Source: a virus
Virus record (IMG/VR): IMGVR_UViG_3300024999_000029
Location: 124,001-188,000 of that record
Reading direction: 5' to 3' (one strand)
Length of the DNA stretch: 64,000 nucleotides
Positions 22,846 to 59,993 of the stretch are shown one piece after another; the stretch's first letter is position 1; each line of letters begins with the position of its first letter. The notes under the pieces are model-generated. The model searched no databases and was not told where the DNA came from. It worked only from the letters and a program-made list of their open reading frames with translations. The position numbers were made by a program, and so were the translations under genes.

Positions 22846-24588
22846 TTAAGAAGCAAGTTCAAATTGTAAATCTATAATGTAATTAACCTCTACAGGATGT
22901 GTATCTCTAGCGTTTTTCTTTCTAAAAAATTTAAACATGCGTTTGTTATCTTCTATATGTGTGATAAACATCAAATGCATATCTCTTATGAAGTAAACTG
23001 GTATTTCACCCAGACCCGCTTTTAATACAACATTAATGCATATTTCATTTTTTTCTTTCCCTTTTGATACTTCAATTTTTTCCAAAAATTTATCCATTGT
23101 TTCTTCGTCTAGTTCACTGTTAATATCAAAATCAAAATTAAAGAATTCTTTTAATGATTTTACTTGTGATGCTACATCATACTTTGCATCGTTTAATTTT
23201 TCATAATTTTTTATTCGTTTTTCATAACCCTCAATTTCATCATTTAAATCTTTAATTTGTTCTTGATAATCGTTGTCCGCTACATTTCCTCCCGCATATA
23301 ACCGTAAAAGATTTTTCTTTAATACTTTATTTTCATTTATATTGTTCATCAACTCTTTAATATCTTTGTCATAATTAACTTCTTTTAAATATTTAGAATG
23401 TAGTTCAGTTAATTCTTTGCTAAAAACGTTTTTATACTTAGAATACATATGTAGTACGTGTTTCATAATATCATCCAACTCATTTTTATACATCATTGGA
23501 CTATCGCAAAATTTTTTACCTTTTTTTCTATAAATTTTACATTGCCATACTTCTTTTGATTCTATAGTGTCGTATTTATAAAAATTTCTCCAATATGATG
23601 TTTTGTGTTCTGAGCAAATTATTTTTCCAGAATATAAGAATTTATTTTGATACGATGTCTTATCTTCGGATGTCATTTTTTCACTTCTTTGTTTTAAGAT
23701 ATTGTTTGCCTTTTCCCATATTTCCTCGGAAACAATTGGTGGAACGCTTTCATAATCTTTATATGTTATCCATTTATCTGAATTAAAAAACTCTCGCTCT
23801 TTTGTAATAAAATCTATTGTTGTTGATTTTTTACCACAATAATATCCCTTATATTTTGGATTAGTAATAATAGATTTTATAGTATTAAACGTAATGGGGT
23901 TTCCGTTTCTATTTACAATTTCTTTTTGAGACAGCATATCGGATACTGTCCTTATTCCTTTATTTTGATTTGCATATAAATCGAAGATTTGACATACAAT
24001 TTCAGCTTCTTCTTTCTCTATTACTAGTTTGCCATTTTCTTTATTATATCCCCATATTTTATTATTCCCCAACACTTTTCCCGAATCGATTGAACGTTTA
24101 TGCCCCCATTTAACTCTATCTGATATCTTTCTACTTTCTTCTTGAGCTAAACTAGACATTATGGCAAGTTTAACCTCCGAATCTGGCATCAAGGTATTTA
24201 TTCCATCATTTTGAAATAGCACTCCTATACCGTATTTTAATAATTCTCTAGTATAAAACAAGCTATCAATTGTATTTCTAGCAAATCTACTTACTTCTTT
24301 AGTTATAACTAAATCAAATTTCTTATTTCTTCCGTCTTCAATCATTTGGTTAAATGCTTCTCTTTTATTGATTGATGTGCCTGTAATACCTTCATCGATG
24401 TATCCTTCTACGAGAGTCCAATTATTACAACTTTTAATATGTTCTTCAAAATAATTAATTTGATTCTTGAGAGAGTTTAATTGATCTAAGGTAGAAGTTG
24501 ATACCCTAGTATAATATGTAACTCTTAACTGTAAGTCGTAGATAGATTTGCCTAGATTCAAAGTATTTCTAATTGTATATAAGTCCAT
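22846..24588 (-). CDS. Large serine recombinase (phage integrase)
   Basis: The N-terminal resolvase domain has the active-site motif YYTRVS with Ser30, followed by GYIDEGITGT and TKEVSRFARN. The recombinase domain follows (about 160-260; IWGYNKENGK, IFDLYANQNKGIRTVSDML), then a zinc ribbon (about 315-360, CSEHKT...WQCKIYRKKGKKFC) and a long coiled coil (about 410-480). At 580 residues it is of normal length. It should integrate and excise the phage between attP and attB. The start follows AGAGGTGAAGA. It has its own promoter at 24637-24664. Confidence 0.9.
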   Translation of the reverse strand: MDLYTIRNTLNLGKSIYDLQLRVTYYTRVSTSTLDQLNSLKNQINYFEEHIKSCNNWTLVEGYIDEGITGTSINKREAFNQMIEDGRNKKFDLVITKEVSRFARNTIDSLFYTRELLKYGIGVLFQNDGINTLMPDSEVKLAIMSSLAQEESRKISDRVKWGHKRSIDSGKVLGNNKIWGYNKENGKLVIEKEEAEIVCQIFDLYANQNKGIRTVSDMLSQKEIVNRNGNPITFNTIKSIITNPKYKGYYCGKKSTTIDFITKEREFFNSDKWITYKDYESVPPIVSEEIWEKANNILKQRSEKMTSEDKTSYQNKFLYSGKIICSEHKTSYWRNFYKYDTIESKEVWQCKIYRKKGKKFCDSPMMYKNELDDIMKHVLHMYSKYKNVFSKELTELHSKYLKEVNYDKDIKELMNNINENKVLKKNLLRLYAGGNVADNDYQEQIKDLNDEIEGYEKRIKNYEKLNDAKYDVASQVKSLKEFFNFDFDINSELDEETMDKFLEKIEVSKGKEKNEICINVVLKAGLGEIPVYFIRDMHLMFITHIEDNKRMFKFFRKKNARDTHPVEVNYIIDLQFELAS

Positions 24589-49281: not shown

Positions 49282-49575
49282 TTAATCTCTTGTGGTTTCA
49301 AAAGCCATTACATATCCTTCCAAACTAACAAAATCAATAAGTCCATAATTATCGCAATTGGTGCATTCCCAAGGCATAATGCCTCCAAAACTACAAGTAG
49401 GATTCATAAAAAAGTTATCTCTATATTTTTGTAATTCAGGAACTTTTCTAGCATCATCTCCTAGTCCATTAGGATACCATTGACCGTAAAATTGAACTGC
49501 TCCTTTGTGCCTACATTTTATACATCTAACATTTTTATTAATTTCATATAATCTAATTTTAGAGTAATTTTTCAT
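49282..49575 (-). CDS. Zinc-binding protein, 97 aa
   Basis: CIKCRHKGAVQF at the N-terminus and WECTNCDNYGLIDF near the C-terminus form a split zinc ribbon. AAAGGAGTTACT as site. Function unknown. Confidence 0.6.
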   Translation of the reverse strand: MKNYSKIRLYEINKNVRCIKCRHKGAVQFYGQWYPNGLGDDARKVPELQKYRDNFFMNPTCSFGGIMPWECTNCDNYGLIDFVSLEGYVMAFETTRD

Positions 49576-52469: not shown

Positions 52470-54791
52470 TTAATAATTCATTATTTTGATTTCATCTGCC
52501 CAAATATATTTTGATTTAAGGGTTGTTCTATGCTTTATAATCTGTATAAAGTCACCTTTTTTAAATCCATTTTTCTTATACACATCTTTTTTCATTTTAA
52601 TTTCTACCATATTACCCGTAGCTATACCATATAGTTTAATTTTAGGATCAGGATAAGTTTCATCTATGTTTATAACATAACCTTGACCTCTGGGTACTGG
52701 ATAAATAGAAACCATTTTTCCTAAATACTCATTTTCAAATTCTATTTGCTCTTTAATAGATAAAATTTTATCTTCTGTTTGCTTCTCAAATTCTTTAAGA
52801 TACTCTAATCGTTGTAATCTTGTCTTTTCTTTATGAGCTTTACTATACTTCAATTTTCCATCTTTAAATTCTCTATATACTGTAAGTAATTTTTCGTTTC
52901 CTCCAAATTGTTTAAAGTAATTAAGTTTGATAAATATTTCCACTTGTTTAGTATTAGCTAAAGAATTATCAGTAATATAAACTAGTAAATCAATAAAGTC
53001 ATTGTAATTTTCTAAGCACAACTCTATGATATTATCTTTTATATCAGCATTTACAAATTTTATATCACTAGACATAATTTTTGATTTTTTTAATGGTCTA
53101 CTATCCAAGAAATCATTAAGTCTTTTTTGTGCGGTGTCTAAGTAATATTGTTTATCTAATGAATTTGGAACTTTTATACCTATTACACTTTCATTATAAA
53201 TAAAACATTTATCTGGTGTATTTGCTAGTTTTTCAATTTTATCTTCACCTTTAACTTTAAATACTCCCTTTGCATTTTCATCTTTAGAGGCAAATACTCT
53301 CAATACTTTTTCTTTAATTTTTTCTTCACCATGTAAAGCATACTTATATAATCTCGATATTTTAACTACTTTTTGAAAATCTCTTAATTCATCACACTCA
53401 TTTATAGTGTCTTCTATAGGTTTGTTTTTTACAAAATAATTTATCAATGCTTTATTTACAATAGGTAAATCGTAATCTATATTACTTAGTTTCTTAACAT
53501 ATGCTCCTTTTGACTTGTATTCACCTTTATCATTTATAATAATATAGTTATTAACATCTTTTTGATAAATTTTATTATAAATATCCCACTCTAAATCTAG
53601 TCTAGTACGTTTTTCCCACTCTTTTGCTACTGATTTTATTTTTTCTATTTTATCTAAATTATCAATTTTAATAAACAAACCATCTGTATTCGATTGTATT
53701 AATTCTCCATATGGTTCTATTTTCTCAATCAAATCCAACAATAATAATTGTCCCGCCACACAAATATTATTTGCCATGAGTGGATCATACAGAGGATTAT
53801 ATTGATCTTTCATTGCACCATATGTAGCATTAACTACTATTTTTAAAGGAACATGCATTGGATTTTTTTCTGCTTTTAATTTTAATCTTAAATCTCTTAT
53901 TTCTCTATATTTTTCTTGTTCAGTTACATTCCTACTCATATAACCATATTCAATGATAATAGAAGGATATAGACTGGCTACATCGCAACACAGAATAATT
54001 CCTTCTCCCATGTAATTATCATTTGAACCATGAATGCCTCCCCATGCAAATGTATGTGGAATTCCTGCAACTTCTGCATGTAATTCCTTATTATACTTCT
54101 TATTATCATCATTTTTATACCAATCAACTATGTATTTATATTTATCTGATATTCTTAAAGTATCAGGTATAGAAATATCAAATTCATCATCTCGACTTTC
54201 TCCTCTAATTGCTCCCAAAACATACGCAGACAACTGAGCTTTAGTCTTATTAAACATTGTCATTGATAAATCAAATGCTTTCAATAAGGACAATTGACTA
54301 TCAAATTCCTCTTTTCTATTATCAAAAACTTTTATAGTTTCTTCCACATCATGTGTACAATATTCTACAACTTCTTGAATCTCTTCCTCGGTAAGTTTTC
54401 TATCTAAATCAAAAGGAACATCTGATTCTTTAATTTTAGAACCCATAAACGCTTCTAACTGTTTTAAACTATGAAATCCAGTCGAAACATCGAAATTATT
54501 TAAAGGGAATAGTTCAGCTTTTCTAACAATCTGATATCCTTTTTTATCTTCGTTTATTAGTTGGTTACTAACTTTATATGGTTCCATATCTTTCAATATA
54601 GCTTTCAATATAAACTGATCATATTGTCTACTGTTGTATCCACAAAAGATACTATTCATATTTTCATTGTAGAATTTTTTTAATTCCACTGAATTATTGA
54701 TAATAACTTTTTTTTCATTTGTTTCATGTTCAATAAATACAACTAACCATAGATACTTAAAAACTTCAAAGTCAAAAAATACTAATTTCAT
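52470..54791 (-). CDS. Family B DNA polymerase with unusual C-terminal extension
   Basis: Exonuclease motifs: FFDFEVF (Asp7, Glu9), GYNSRQYDQ (Asp58), YCTHDVEET (Asp148). Polymerase motifs: A CCDVASLYPSI (Asp270), B KIVVNATYGA (residues 317-326), C QSNTDG (Asp370, with SNTD instead of the common YGDTD). The palm and fingers are complete by about residue 480. The last 190 residues (about 585-773) are not typical: VEIFIKLNYFKQFGGNEKLL and the strand-rich end GNMVEIKMKKDVYKKNGFKKGDFIQII resemble the helix-hairpin-helix and OB regions of bacterial PolIII alpha (DnaE). Replicative polymerase of the phage. Confidence 0.88.
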   Translation of the reverse strand: MKLVFFDFEVFKYLWLVVFIEHETNEKKVIINNSVELKKFYNENMNSIFCGYNSRQYDQFILKAILKDMEPYKVSNQLINEDKKGYQIVRKAELFPLNNFDVSTGFHSLKQLEAFMGSKIKESDVPFDLDRKLTEEEIQEVVEYCTHDVEETIKVFDNRKEEFDSQLSLLKAFDLSMTMFNKTKAQLSAYVLGAIRGESRDDEFDISIPDTLRISDKYKYIVDWYKNDDNKKYNKELHAEVAGIPHTFAWGGIHGSNDNYMGEGIILCCDVASLYPSIIIEYGYMSRNVTEQEKYREIRDLRLKLKAEKNPMHVPLKIVVNATYGAMKDQYNPLYDPLMANNICVAGQLLLLDLIEKIEPYGELIQSNTDGLFIKIDNLDKIEKIKSVAKEWEKRTRLDLEWDIYNKIYQKDVNNYIIINDKGEYKSKGAYVKKLSNIDYDLPIVNKALINYFVKNKPIEDTINECDELRDFQKVVKISRLYKYALHGEEKIKEKVLRVFASKDENAKGVFKVKGEDKIEKLANTPDKCFIYNESVIGIKVPNSLDKQYYLDTAQKRLNDFLDSRPLKKSKIMSSDIKFVNADIKDNIIELCLENYNDFIDLLVYITDNSLANTKQVEIFIKLNYFKQFGGNEKLLTVYREFKDGKLKYSKAHKEKTRLQRLEYLKEFEKQTEDKILSIKEQIEFENEYLGKMVSIYPVPRGQGYVINIDETYPDPKIKLYGIATGNMVEIKMKKDVYKKNGFKKGDFIQIIKHRTTLKSKYIWADEIKIMNY

Positions 54792-54793
54792 AG

Positions 54794-55657
54794 TTATTCT
54801 CCTATATATCTTTCACTGTATTGGCAATTTCTATTTTGACCGCAAACCCATGAACACCAGAACTCGGAAGCTTCTTCACCTTTTAACCATTTAACTTCAT
54901 TATAAATATTAGCGATAGTATTAATTACCCAGTTTTTACTTCTTTCAAAATCATCCTTATTAAACTCAAACTTATACCAATCTTTAATTTTAAACATATT
55001 AAAATTCAGATATTTGGGATATTCTCCATATTTTTCATAAAAAGGTATGCAATACAAATAAAGTTGAATCACCATACTAAAAGGAAGGAATCTTCCATCT
55101 GTTAATTCTACGAAATCTTCTTTGTTTTCTCCTTTTTTTATTGCATTATTTACTTGTCTTTGTGTTTTATCTTGTTCACTTTTAGATTTATGGTCAACAA
55201 TTTCAAACCACCCATTTTTATTTTTTAGTTCTAAGTCAACAACACCTGTAAAATCGTATTTATCTATTTTATAATCATATTTATGTTCTACATCTAATAC
55301 TTCATAACAATCATCTAATCCATTAAAATCACTAAAATATTCTTTTCCTTGTTCAAAATACTTAGCTGCTAAATCAACATATTTATTAGGTGGAAAATAT
55401 GCTGTAACTTTAGAGGTAAATTCATCAACATATTTATCTTTTAGTTCAAAACTACATAATTTATTTTTAAAATAATCCTCTAACAATTCATGTCCAAATG
55501 AGCCATATTGTCCAAACGCCCCATCTGTTGATTTTTTCTTCAAAATATATGTAAGATAAAAACATTGTGGACATCTTTCACATGTTTCTAATCTTGAGTA
55601 TGAAAAAATCATCTGATCCAAAATGAAATCATATTCTCCCAACTTAATTACCTCCAA
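54794..55657 (-). CDS. RecB/Cas4-like PD-(D/E)xK nuclease with cysteine cluster
   Basis: FGHELLEDYF (His56), FTGVVDLEL (Asp141), FEIVDHKSK (Asp155, Lys157) form the RecB-type nuclease motif. Cys26, Cys29, Cys32 at the start and CSWVCGQNRNC at the end could hold an iron-sulfur cluster, as in AddB/Cas4. Likely a phage exonuclease for recombination or end processing. Overlaps the primase by 14 bases. Confidence 0.8.
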   Translation of the reverse strand: MEVIKLGEYDFILDQMIFSYSRLETCERCPQCFYLTYILKKKSTDGAFGQYGSFGHELLEDYFKNKLCSFELKDKYVDEFTSKVTAYFPPNKYVDLAAKYFEQGKEYFSDFNGLDDCYEVLDVEHKYDYKIDKYDFTGVVDLELKNKNGWFEIVDHKSKSEQDKTQRQVNNAIKKGENKEDFVELTDGRFLPFSMVIQLYLYCIPFYEKYGEYPKYLNFNMFKIKDWYKFEFNKDDFERSKNWVINTIANIYNEVKWLKGEEASEFWCSWVCGQNRNCQYSERYIGE

Positions 55658-56639
55658 GTTTTATTTTTTTGTTGTATAATTCATTCCATACAGTTAGTCC
55701 TCTATCTACAGGTGCATCTTTATATTTTAATAATCCTTGTTCATCATAAATAACATTTATAGCTGTAAACTTTAATAATTTGGCGCAATTTTCTTTTATA
55801 TTTTCTATTATTACGTTTTTATCTAAAGCAATTGTAATTTCACACTTTAATTCTAGTAGTAATCTTAATTGATATTCGTTAATATGACTGGTAGCTAATG
55901 CCACGACGTTATTTATTCCCCACCCCTCTAGTTTCCAAACAGATTTTTCCGACTCAACAACTATTACTTCTTTTTTCTCTTTTATAAATTCAATGTTATT
56001 ATTTAATCCAAATAAAAAATCATTAGTTCCAAGTTTGTAATAATATAAATATTTTTTAATACCTAGTTCTTTAAACTTTTCATATAATGACCGTCCTTTT
56101 ATATTTATTATTTTTCCTTCTTTATTAATTATTGGAAATACTGCTCTATTACTTCTAGAATCATATCTCACTTGATATTTATCCATTATTTCTGGCAATA
56201 TTCCTTCTTCCAACCATTCATATATAGGCTGATTATCATACTTATTCATAATATTATCAGGTAAAATTTCATGCACAACTTTAGTTGTATTTTTTTTATT
56301 AAATTTTCTTAATATTTTTATGCTTTCAAATTCTTCTTTAAATTGAGATATATCTGTACCTGTATAATTAATTAAATATTCTACTGCTTGTGGAAAATTT
56401 AATTTATGATATTTCATTATAAAATCAATAATTGTAGAAGTCGCTCCACATCCAAAACAAAAAAACATTCGTTTGTCTAAAGATACAGAAAATGAAGCAG
56501 TATTTTCGTCATGAAAAGGACACATGCCAAAATAATCCCTTCCATGACGAGTTAATTGAACATATTGGCTTATATAATCAACTATATTTACTTTTTCTAT
56601 CAACTCTTGTAATAAATCTTGACCATATTCTTTATACAT
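55644..56639 (-). CDS. DNA primase (DnaG type)
   Basis: N-terminal CHC2 zinc finger (MCPFHDENTASFSV...FFCFGCG; Cys40, His43, Cys61, Cys64), then the Toprim domain with VIVVESEKSVWKLEGWG and EITIALDKN. At 331 residues it is short, lacking the helicase-interacting C-terminus. It makes RNA primers with the DnaB helicase encoded next to it. Confidence 0.88.
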   Translation of the reverse strand: MYKEYGQDLLQELIEKVNIVDYISQYVQLTRHGRDYFGMCPFHDENTASFSVSLDKRMFFCFGCGATSTIIDFIMKYHKLNFPQAVEYLINYTGTDISQFKEEFESIKILRKFNKKNTTKVVHEILPDNIMNKYDNQPIYEWLEEGILPEIMDKYQVRYDSRSNRAVFPIINKEGKIINIKGRSLYEKFKELGIKKYLYYYKLGTNDFLFGLNNNIEFIKEKKEVIVVESEKSVWKLEGWGINNVVALATSHINEYQLRLLLELKCEITIALDKNVIIENIKENCAKLLKFTAINVIYDEQGLLKYKDAPVDRGLTVWNELYNKKIKLGGN

Positions 56640-56656: not shown

Positions 56657-58012
56657 TTATAATGGGAACTCTTGTACAGTATGTTGAGTTACAACTTGTT
56701 CTATAGTGGCTAAATTACCATTAAATGATAAATCAATATATTCTTCGTCTGTATTAGTCATTTGCTCACCATTTCTATTCAATTTAACAAATAATTTATA
56801 ATTACCACACTGTTGTCCATCTCTAATAATTTCTTCAGGTAATTTAGGTATTAAGTTTATTATAGAACTAGCATATTGCTCAATCTTATAACTATCTGCA
56901 ATCTCATTACCTCTGTTTAATTGACCTCCCGCAAGTACTGCCATGTTTAATCCTCCAGCAATATCATTTTTCAAGAAGTTTGTTTTATTTCCAAGATCAT
57001 TATATTGTCCTGTACTATCTCCAGCATTACTTTTCAAATAGTCATACACTACAAATTGTAGTCCCATTTTATATTGAAGTATTTTACATGTTGTATATAT
57101 TTTATCATTTGTCCATGATGGGCTATACATATGTACAAATGGAGCAGATTTAATAAAAGTTAATGCATCTTGTATTATAAGTTCTTCTGTATGTGTATAA
57201 CTTCCAGTTTTAATCTTAAATACTGGTATTTGAGTCAAATGAGCAAGCATTCTTTCCATGAAGTTTCTGCTAGACATTTCAGTATCTATATAAAGAGTCG
57301 GTACTTTATTTTTTAGTTTATGTACTGACTCATTCATCATAAACATTGATTTACCAGTTTTACGAGGGGCAGCAACGATGATGAGTTCTCCTCTATCGTA
57401 TGGACAATATTTATTTTGTAATTCATATTTAGAAGGTATACCATATAGTTCTTTCCCATGTTGTCTTTTCATTGTTTCTTGCCACAGGTTATCAACTTTT
57501 TCACCAAACAATTCAATATCGTTAGTAATTACATATTCTTCTGCAAGTTTATTTAAACCATTATAAACAAAAGTATTAAGCTCACCTAAATCGTAGTTAT
57601 CATCAAAACAACTCTTTTGAAATTCTTGTAATTTTTTATATAAATCACGCTTAAAAGCTAAAGTTACAACTTTTTGAACTACTATTGTATATTCTTCAAT
57701 ACTATCTCTAGCTACATGTTGCGATAAATCAACTAATTCTTGTATGGAATTAATGTTAAAGTTTTCAATAGTTTTTTTTACTCCTTCGTTACTATTAAGC
57801 ATAGTAGTCAAATTGAAAACATCTATATTTTCTACTCCAGATTTATATAATTCATCAATTGCCCAATATATACAAGCGTTTTCTTTATTATAAAAATGTT
57901 TAGCTTTTAAATATTCACTATGTAATATAAAGTCTGGATGATATATTAACGTACTAATTACTCCTGATTCAGATTGACTGTCCTTTATTTCTGATATTTT
58001 CAAATACATCAC
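56657..58012 (-). CDS. Replicative DNA helicase (DnaB family)
   Basis: N-terminal DnaB domain (SESGVISTLIYHPDFIL) and RecA core with Walker A AAPRKTGKSMF (about 215-224), Walker B region LQFVVYDYLKS and VLAGGQLNR. Normal length (451). It unwinds DNA 5'-3' as a hexamer. Its start overlaps the upstream gene by four bases (ATGA type), hinting at equimolar expression with that gene, a probable loader. Confidence 0.92.
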   Translation of the reverse strand: MMYLKISEIKDSQSESGVISTLIYHPDFILHSEYLKAKHFYNKENACIYWAIDELYKSGVENIDVFNLTTMLNSNEGVKKTIENFNINSIQELVDLSQHVARDSIEEYTIVVQKVVTLAFKRDLYKKLQEFQKSCFDDNYDLGELNTFVYNGLNKLAEEYVITNDIELFGEKVDNLWQETMKRQHGKELYGIPSKYELQNKYCPYDRGELIIVAAPRKTGKSMFMMNESVHKLKNKVPTLYIDTEMSSRNFMERMLAHLTQIPVFKIKTGSYTHTEELIIQDALTFIKSAPFVHMYSPSWTNDKIYTTCKILQYKMGLQFVVYDYLKSNAGDSTGQYNDLGNKTNFLKNDIAGGLNMAVLAGGQLNRGNEIADSYKIEQYASSIINLIPKLPEEIIRDGQQCGNYKLFVKLNRNGEQMTNTDEEYIDLSFNGNLATIEQVVTQHTVQEFPL

Positions 58013-58476
58013 CCCTTAAAAAGTTTATTCCAACTATTGTTTTCAACATTAGAATTGAATGTTATTTCATCTTGAAATTTTATATTTTCAATTGTAGTGT
58101 TTTTAGTTTGTTTCATTAACTCATTTGCTTTTGTTTTATAATATTCTTCTTTCATTTTTGTGTTGTTAATTATATAGTGCAATCCAGATGCGTGATTTAA
58201 TGGTAATTTATTGCGTATTACATACTTTATTGCAAATAATAATAAATCACTTGCTACGTTTTTTTCATCAATAATCATATTTATTGTTTTATTTAAACTA
58301 GATGCAACTTCCGTCTTGTTGATATGTTCAAAAAATAATTGTCTAACTTCATTTTTATTAGTTGCTTCTTGTAAACACTCTACATGATAATACCTATTTT
58401 TGTGTTTAACAGCTATTTCTTCACTTACTTCATTATTAAATTTACATTGATTATAAGCACATTTAAATACTTTCAT
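58009..58476 (-). CDS. Probable helicase loader or co-factor, 155 aa
   Basis: N-terminal Cys-rich segment (CAYNQCKF...YYHVECLQEA) suggests a small zinc site, followed by helices. No AAA motif, so it is not DnaC/DnaI-like. Position directly before dnaB with a four-base overlap argues for a role in loading or regulating the helicase. Inference from context. Confidence 0.5.
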   Translation of the reverse strand: MKVFKCAYNQCKFNNEVSEEIAVKHKNRYYHVECLQEATNKNEVRQLFFEHINKTEVASSLNKTINMIIDEKNVASDLLLFAIKYVIRNKLPLNHASGLHYIINNTKMKEEYYKTKANELMKQTKNTTIENIKFQDEITFNSNVENNSWNKLFKG

Positions 58477-58970: not shown

Positions 58971-59993
58971 TTATTTTTTAATTTTATTTAACTCAGAATA
59001 CATTTCTTTTGCTACATTTAAATCTTTTATATTGTTTGGATTTCCTTTGTAATCTTTAAGTGCATCTAATACAGCATCTCGATTAATTTGTGCTTTTTCC
59101 TTTGCTATATTTAATAATTCAGCTTTTAATTGATCAAGTGTAAAACCTTCAATATCCTTTAACTCTTTATTTTCTATTTCTTTCACTTCTTCTTTAACCT
59201 TATTGGACACTTCTTTTAGTTCATTCTCTTCATTGGCTTTCATATCATCTTTTATTTTTTGTCTCTCTTTTATTATTGAATCCATTTGATTCTTACCATC
59301 CCCCAATGCCCATTTGCAAAGTTTTTCACCATGTTTTTCATCTAATACTAGTGCTTCTCCCTCAAACAAATGTGTATTATCTTTTGCCGTAGTAGCTATA
59401 TGAGTATCTAAATCAAGAATAAATGAAGTAATAAATAAATACTCTGTATTTTTTCTTTGGTCGTAACCTAGCGGAATTTTTCTCACTACTTGCTTACCAT
59501 TAATCTCTTCTTGCACATACTTATCATCGCCTCTAACTGTAGCAAAAATATGTATATTACTATCTAAAATTTTATCCATAAATGCTTCATGTCTAGGTGT
59601 AACAGTTCTCCATGCTGTATAAGAATTTCCAGGGATTTTAGCATGAATTTCTAAACAACCACCTTTACCACTCCACTCATGAGTAATACTATCTATAATT
59701 AAAATTTTATATCCAGCAGCAACCGCTTCATCTATAGCAGCTATGTATTTTTCTGGAGTATAAGGTGCAGTAATATCCATTATGTCGTAATCATATTCGT
59801 TAGCGTATAATTTACCTCTATTGGGTTCTGAGTTTATAAAAGCGATTCTCTCATTTTTACCTGTTTGTTTTGATAGTTCTTTAGCGAATCCAGAAGCTAA
59901 TTTGAGAGATGTATATGATTTACCTCCTCCAGAACTCGCAATTTGTAAACCTTTAAACCACATATAATCTCTAGTTGCTTTAACGAATGCCAT
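58971..59993 (-). CDS. Sak4-like RecA-fold ATPase (phage nucleotide-binding protein)
   Basis: Walker A LQIASSGGGKSYTSLKLA (Gly22-Ser26), Walker B YKILIIDSITHEW. The RecA-like core is that of the Sak4/AAA_24 family, single-strand annealing and strand-exchange proteins of phages, which often pair with SSB as here. The C-terminal third (about 240-340) is a charged helical extension with a SAP-like or HeH-like end. AGGAGGAAAATTATTT as site. Confidence 0.8.
   Translation of the reverse strand: MAFVKATRDYMWFKGLQIASSGGGKSYTSLKLASGFAKELSKQTGKNERIAFINSEPNRGKLYANEYDYDIMDITAPYTPEKYIAAIDEAVAAGYKILIIDSITHEWSGKGGCLEIHAKIPGNSYTAWRTVTPRHEAFMDKILDSNIHIFATVRGDDKYVQEEINGKQVVRKIPLGYDQRKNTEYLFITSFILDLDTHIATTAKDNTHLFEGEALVLDEKHGEKLCKWALGDGKNQMDSIIKERQKIKDDMKANEENELKEVSNKVKEEVKEIENKELKDIEGFTLDQLKAELLNIAKEKAQINRDAVLDALKDYKGNPNNIKDLNVAKEMYSELNKIKK

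Follow-up and report, generated by a model that had tools for sequence, protein, structure and literature searches.

Families B, C and D of cellular replicases are not related to each other, and how one came to replace another is a standing question. The phage gene studied here raises this question directly, as it has the look of a polymerase swap stopped midway: what kind of polymerase does it encode, and how did its two parts come together? A preliminary description of the locus had proposed a fusion of two polymerase lineages, and our analysis bears this out, with a family B (PolB) core and the C-terminus of the family C polymerase DnaE in one ORF. The gene lies in a window of 64,000 nucleotides, the whole stretch of DNA analyzed here, which corresponds to positions 124001-188000 of a viral record (G000) of 349,050 bases. 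It has a two-part architecture, and its tail is of DnaE origin. Its parts, in window coordinates, are:

52470..54791, minus strand: whole fusion gene, family B core plus DnaE C-terminal tail; 773 aa in a single uninterrupted ORF with PolB and DnaE-tail matches.
53106..54791, minus strand: PolB exonuclease-polymerase core, residues 1-562; match to phrog_1252, end point of tail-less homologues, pLDDT mostly >90, archaeal PolB fold (E 3e-15).
53958..53984, minus strand: motif A, DVASLYPSI, residues 270-278; D270 invariant in 53 homologues.
53679..53696, minus strand: motif C, QSNTDG, residues 366-371, with Asn for the first Asp of DTD; invariant columns and ORF counts.
53070..53105, minus strand: flexible linker between core and tail, residues 563-574; pLDDT <50 at 565-575, gap between the two homologies.
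52857..53069, minus strand: partial (HhH)2 domain of DnaE, residues 575-645; alignment to the DnaE of Geobacillus virus E3, model helices, Pfam HHH_6 positions 29-88.
52698..52856, minus strand: helical connector from HhH to OB, residues 646-698; alignment and model helices.
52473..52697, minus strand: OB fold, residues 699-773; model topology strand-strand-strand-helix-strand-strand, OB-fold structural matches.

A match of residues 2-564 to the phage PolB family phrog_1252 (E 2.7e-164) confirms the earlier assignment of the catalytic part to family B, and an AlphaFold model resembles archaeal PolB structures in Foldseek searches (E 3e-15; TM-score 0.42 with the tail included). With 563 aa and 55% identity to the core, the PolB of Paenibacillus phage Wanderer stops at the equivalent of residue ~562, and that of Staphylococcus phage PI-Sepi-HH2 (582 aa) ends a few residues beyond Wanderer's end, without a tail. 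Thus, these phrog_1252 polymerases share with the fusion a 53–56% identical exonuclease-polymerase core and the SNTDG motif C, but unlike the fusion they end at a natural PolB C-terminus.

Among 53 homologues, the residues of the 3′–5′ exonuclease motifs I-III are near-invariant (D7/E9) or invariant (N53, D58, Y144, D148), as are the catalytic aspartates of polymerase motifs A and C (D270 and D370). Because these motifs, including the second Asp of motif C, are retained, the core is expected to polymerize and to proofread. The motif C sequence SNTDG had been noted as part of what makes the gene odd. The sequence is correct, but N368-T369-D370-G371 is invariant in the 53 family members, and QSNTDG is present in 92 tail-less as well as 8 fused ORFs, indicating that this motif is independent of the tail. 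We therefore discarded it as a component of the oddity; it is a trait of the whole PolB family, and other active PolB groups likewise lack the first Asp of motif C (PMC7544198).

The last ~190 residues had been likened to the helix-hairpin-helix (HhH) and OB end of DnaE, and both sequence homology and the structural model agree with this. Residues 580-773 alone match the phage DnaE families phrog_11119 (E 3.7e-17) and phrog_405 (E 5.7e-7) as well as positions 779-894 of the 974-position NCBIfam DnaE model NF005516 (E 8.7e-5). A tblastn search with the tail detected the DnaE C-terminus in 44 phage records, with the DnaE of Geobacillus virus E3 as best match (40.8% identity, E 6e-32). Judged from sequence, this similarity is far beyond chance. 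In the alignment with E3, residue ~575 of the fusion pairs with E3 residue ~800 and the match continues from there, so that the DnaE homology, although real, begins nearer residue 575 (nt ~53069), i.e., earlier than first described. As the HHH_6 domain of E3 spans 771-859, the fusion lacks roughly the first third of it but has the remainder, followed by the connector and the OB fold. The HhH region is thus there as claimed, but as most of the (HhH)2 domain rather than all of it. In line with this, only HHH_6 positions 29-88 are recognized in the fusion, with an E-value of 0.11 compared to 3e-8 in E3 DnaE; one fused relative, L124, has a nearly complete domain (2-88) with E 2e-5, just under the Pfam cut-off. 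The tail is easily missed, since Pfam alone gives no above-threshold match.

The full-length protein and the tail were modelled separately, since the tails were misaligned when whole proteins and tail pieces were combined. In the full-length model the PolB body is confident and the helical region well predicted, whereas the OB barrel, for which the alignment was shallow, is less confident; very low confidence at 565-575 marks the flexible linker of ~12 residues. Modelled alone with a deeper alignment, the tail reaches a pLDDT of 94.5 and forms HhH-type helices followed by an OB barrel (strands 704-710, 717-722, 728-732, helix 735-741, strands 748-756 and 763-772). Compared with the viral proteins of BFVD, it is structurally closest to a DnaE of Lactococcus phage LW81 (TM 0.75) and to a second phage DNA polymerase. 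Together, the topology, the OB structural matches and these viral matches identify the C-terminal OB fold of family C. Foldseek searches of the PDB with the tail returned OB folds in general and no DnaE, and a profile sequence search of the PDB gave no match. The PHP domain of family C had no Pfam match in the fusion; it is present in E3, in Psychrobacillus phage Perkons and in the other phage of the record. The Pol3 catalytic palm and fingers (PF07733, PF17657) are absent from the fusion protein, and within the record they occur only in a separate DnaE at 7-10 kb. A simple pattern scan for the internal beta-clamp binding motif that cellular DnaE has between HhH and OB found only QVEIF at 616, within the HhH region, and none in the connector; use of such a motif by phage DnaE tails is not known.

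The record itself contains a head-to-tail pair of related phage genomes of ~174 kb, with many genes 70–98% identical and in the same order. Its ends split one gene, whose intact version lies in the window at 49282-49575; as both ends fall within this gene, the sequence closes into a circle except for ~90 bases. The record could be a real cointegrate, tandem prophages or a merged assembly. Flanking genes are 92–96% identical in both halves, whereas the replication blocks between them differ: G000:808-18804 carries a full DnaE, and 173605-186040 the PolB with the DnaE tail. At window position 22846-24588, the right end of the first phage genome, we also observed a 580-aa ORF, a putative serine recombinase; at the end of the second phage genome (G000:321076-322872) lies a distant counterpart with 25% identity.

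The tail is also shared by homologues of the gene. Pattern scans built from the single protein were nearly empty, and alignments were needed for finding relatives. Searching viral contigs and genomes with PolB and tail alignments detected both profiles in one ORF in 11 cases, covering ten distinct contigs besides the record (L036/L116, L037, L038, L039, L040, L041, L056, L058, L124 and L204). L204 is a contig in the genome of a cultured strain, Lacrimispora amygdalina, and the only cultured source among them; the other fusions come from several metagenomes. The sequence beyond the core is shorter than 25 residues in 110 of 124 PolB ORFs, ~34 residues in one and at least 225 in the rest, and the 103 tail-bearing ORFs comprise 89 with a DnaE core, 11 with PolB and 3 short pieces.

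Some unusual ORFs were seen along the way. Two long PolB ORFs from Clostridia MAGs do not carry the DnaE tail: L224:6001-8574 encodes an 858-aa PolB with a 258-aa C-terminal extension that gave no DnaE-tail, Pfam or NCBIfam match in our searches, and in L232:5992-7401, a 470-aa ORF, the first ~160 residues of this PolB are followed by an SPP1-type portal protein, which is either a deletion or an assembly artefact. In L007:5057-9603 and L033:3143-7768, DnaE appears as two ORFs around an inserted ORF, which suggests an intron or homing element; in the split DnaE of a Thomasclavelia phage the inserted ORF is an HNH endonuclease. The 299-aa family phrog_11119 may be such a C-terminal DnaE piece.

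Three other readings of the tail were weighed. HhH and OB are common DNA-binding folds, and the likeness to DnaE could be convergent, the tail being a normal family B thumb or an extension specific to PolB. Yet the tail-less homologues hold a full thumb and end at residue ~562, and HhH, connector and OB are similar to DnaE in order and with up to 41% identity, so that we reject this reading as virtually impossible. The record joins two related phage genomes, so misjoins can occur, and an assembler might have stitched PolB and DnaE parts together; but the independent fusions found elsewhere, one of them in a cultured strain, contradict such a chimera, and the record's only other DnaE tail is 27% identical and offers no shared sequence for a misjoin. 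This explanation, too, has a negligible chance and was dropped.

A non-functional remnant, left after PolB overwrote the whole DnaE gene, is the third reading and an improbable one. Tail-less PolBs work in similar modules, and between the window and L036 the tail diverges faster than the core (dN/dS 0.39 vs 0.14, with synonymous sites near saturation). On the other hand, HhH and OB are retained in every fused case, the tail model is well folded, the fusion recurred independently, and dN/dS values of 0.12–0.17 among close relatives point to purifying selection on the tail.

The genomic context of the fusion is that of a replication operon, which in the window runs AAA_24 ATPase, a 138-aa protein, a 155-aa protein, DnaB, primase, PD-(D/E)XK nuclease and the fusion polymerase:

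58971..59993, minus strand: AAA_24 ATPase, start of the replication module; Pfam AAA_24 E 8.4e-8, phrog_1366.
58009..58476, minus strand: 155-aa protein between helicase and AAA genes; weakly DnaB_2/DnaD-like (Pfam DnaB_2 E 0.0046, below cut-off), conserved in module relatives.
56657..58012, minus strand: DnaB-type replicative helicase; Pfam DnaB_C E 4.1e-21.
55644..56639, minus strand: DnaG-type primase with CHC2 zinc finger and Toprim; Pfam Zn_ribbon_DnaG E 6.2e-32.
54794..55657, minus strand: PD-(D/E)XK nuclease, neighbour in the module; Pfam PDDEXK_1 E 7.7e-16.

The 155-aa protein is possibly a loader, an uncertain assignment. In related phages, the slot of the fusion is held by a full DnaE: Perkons has the order helicase, primase, PD-(D/E)XK nuclease, HNH and full DnaE, and E3 has helicase, primase, single-strand exonuclease and DnaE. 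All 12 closest relatives of the window nuclease adjoin a full DnaE, and the same holds for the nearest relatives of the window DnaB, primase and nuclease if the fused L036 is set aside. Contigs L037-L041 show the order AAA-DnaB-primase-nuclease-[fusion]-RecD2-like helicase, and their neighbouring genes are mostly 41–74% identical to those of the record's other phage, where a full 1109-aa DnaE occupies the slot. By sequence comparison, the evidence for the slot is tightest for these contigs, as the neighbours resemble that module and the tails are sister to its DnaE. For the window, the nearest DnaE lineage of the tail (E3-like) differs from the lineage of the neighbour genes, and this discordance makes an in-place history less direct than for L037-L041. 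Apart from the record's separate DnaE, no DnaE catalytic domain was found in the fusion-bearing contigs searched, which may be fragments.

The tail-less PolBs of L042-L055 and L089 (~65% identical) lie in a Perkons-like helicase-primase-nuclease module and apparently represent whole-gene replacements. Replacement thus seems to have affected the whole gene in some phages and the core alone in others, and as the tail-less PolBs serve a similar module, the tail is not strictly needed.

Fusion took place at least twice. The core of L124 is a crAss-like PolB, with its best phage matches (32%) to crAss-like polymerases, while its tail is an E3-like DnaE tail (42.5%, E 5e-40) whose junction lies ~36 DnaE positions farther upstream (model position 771 vs ~804-807). 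With a different PolB and a junction of its own, L124 represents a separate event. In the main lineage, the eight fused PolB cores are compatible with one clade (AU p 0.565). Over their full length, the clade A tails are rejected as one clade (AU p 1e-4), although neither half of the tail alone rejects it (HhH half p 0.6). In the tail tree (73 sequences of ~200 aa), the tails of the window and L036 fall within the E3-like DnaE group, and the sister of the L037-L041 tails is the full DnaE of the record's other half (support 97/91). With cores compatible with one clade and whole tails rejected as one, either a single fusion was followed by an exchange of tails or fusion was repeated.

A single ancestral fusion in the main lineage, with tails later exchanged with resident DnaE tails and some lost, has somewhat less than an even chance in our view. 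The clade tests on cores and HhH halves speak for it, as do contigs L040 (from ~7672) and L041 (from ~6679), which match at 100% along ~2.2 kb that begins at codon ~559 and takes in the tail and the downstream helicase, but at only ~88% before this point; an exchange at the border would leave such a trace. This pattern could reflect a crossover at the domain border; as L038-L041 come from related metagenomes, strain-mosaic assembly could mimic it. The rejection of the whole clade A tails weighs against a single fusion, and L124 certainly stands apart. Such a history is compatible with our preferred explanation of the product and differs from it on how the product arose.

Our preferred explanation is that the gene encodes a phage replicative polymerase, born when the catalytic part of DnaE was exchanged in its slot for PolB while the (HhH)2/OB end was kept; we consider this probable. 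A resident family C polymerase would have occupied the slot in the helicase-primase-nuclease operon. Its catalytic part (PHP, palm, fingers) would have been replaced by a complete family B polymerase-exonuclease core, with the (HhH)2/OB end retained in frame behind it. Most likely, the catalytic two-thirds of the replicase were swapped from family C to B and the old DNA-binding and docking tail stayed. The neighbouring genes point to a replacement in place, and we infer both the order of events, DnaE before PolB, and the replicative role.

In DnaE, (HhH)2 contacts duplex DNA and the OB fold contacts the single-stranded template. The tail most likely acts by analogy: its HhH part would grip duplex DNA behind the active site, as thought for DnaE, its OB fold would hold the single-strand template, and one or both would dock to phage replisome partners. 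In this way the PolB core would take over the hold on DNA and the contacts to partners with no sliding clamp encoded by the phage. Neither the record nor the other large PolB-bearing contigs that were searched, which may be fragments, yielded a sliding clamp, and a DNA-gripping tail would make sense in this setting; the DnaE phage Perkons has a DnaN-like clamp (MT325768.1:7489-7845).

More tentatively, the DnaE-type tail may be the fixed, partner-recognizing part, on which cores of family C and of at least two kinds of B are exchangeable via recombination at the border. If true, the mounting of unrelated cores on one tail would be a living parallel to the replacement of PolD by PolB that is inferred for archaea and eukaryotes. 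What the tail contributes, and whether it can be moved between cores, becomes testable with these genes, and the fusions would offer natural designs for polymerases with added DNA grip.

In Caudoviricetes, in-place swapping of polymerases between families (A/B, A/C) and within a family is known for whole genes (PMC11348598). The fusion resembles these cases in that a polymerase of another family sits in an otherwise conserved replication neighbourhood; helicase, primase and nuclease may travel along with the polymerase. The Goe12/Goe13 swap is similar to the record, whose replication block likewise differs between 92–96% identical flanking genes. In contrast to these whole-gene swaps, the change from C to B here lies within the gene, and the C-terminal ~200 aa of DnaE are kept. 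A term search of PMC11348598 found no C-to-B swap or fusion, and no published description of a PolB-DnaE tail fusion was found in the open-access papers searched.

Phage DnaE of the E3/Perkons type shares the homologous C-terminal ~200 aa and the operon slot with the fusion, but carries family C PHP, palm and fingers upstream, which the fusion lacks. HelPrimPolB and four-in-one phage replicases (PMC7544198, PMC12205980) also fuse PolB to another replication module; unlike the fusion, they bear helicase and primase domains and no C-terminal piece of another polymerase family. A further parallel comes from archaea and eukaryotes, where PolB is inferred to have taken the place of a PolD core while the PolD-type C-terminal domain stayed (PMC7544198, PMC2669801), and where the PolD-type end of eukaryotic PolBs suggests an ancient core swap that kept the old tail. 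The archaeal B6/Aenigmarchaeota and eukaryotic PolBs likewise combine a B core with the C-terminal domain of an unrelated, presumably replaced replicase; there, however, the donor is family D (DP2) and the domain binds zinc and a B-subunit, whereas here it is family C and HhH/OB. Thus, the phage fusion appears to be a family C-to-B counterpart of the PolD-to-PolB case, undescribed in the open-access literature searched, and one in which the event was repeated and stands beside unswapped relatives in the same slot, even within one record.
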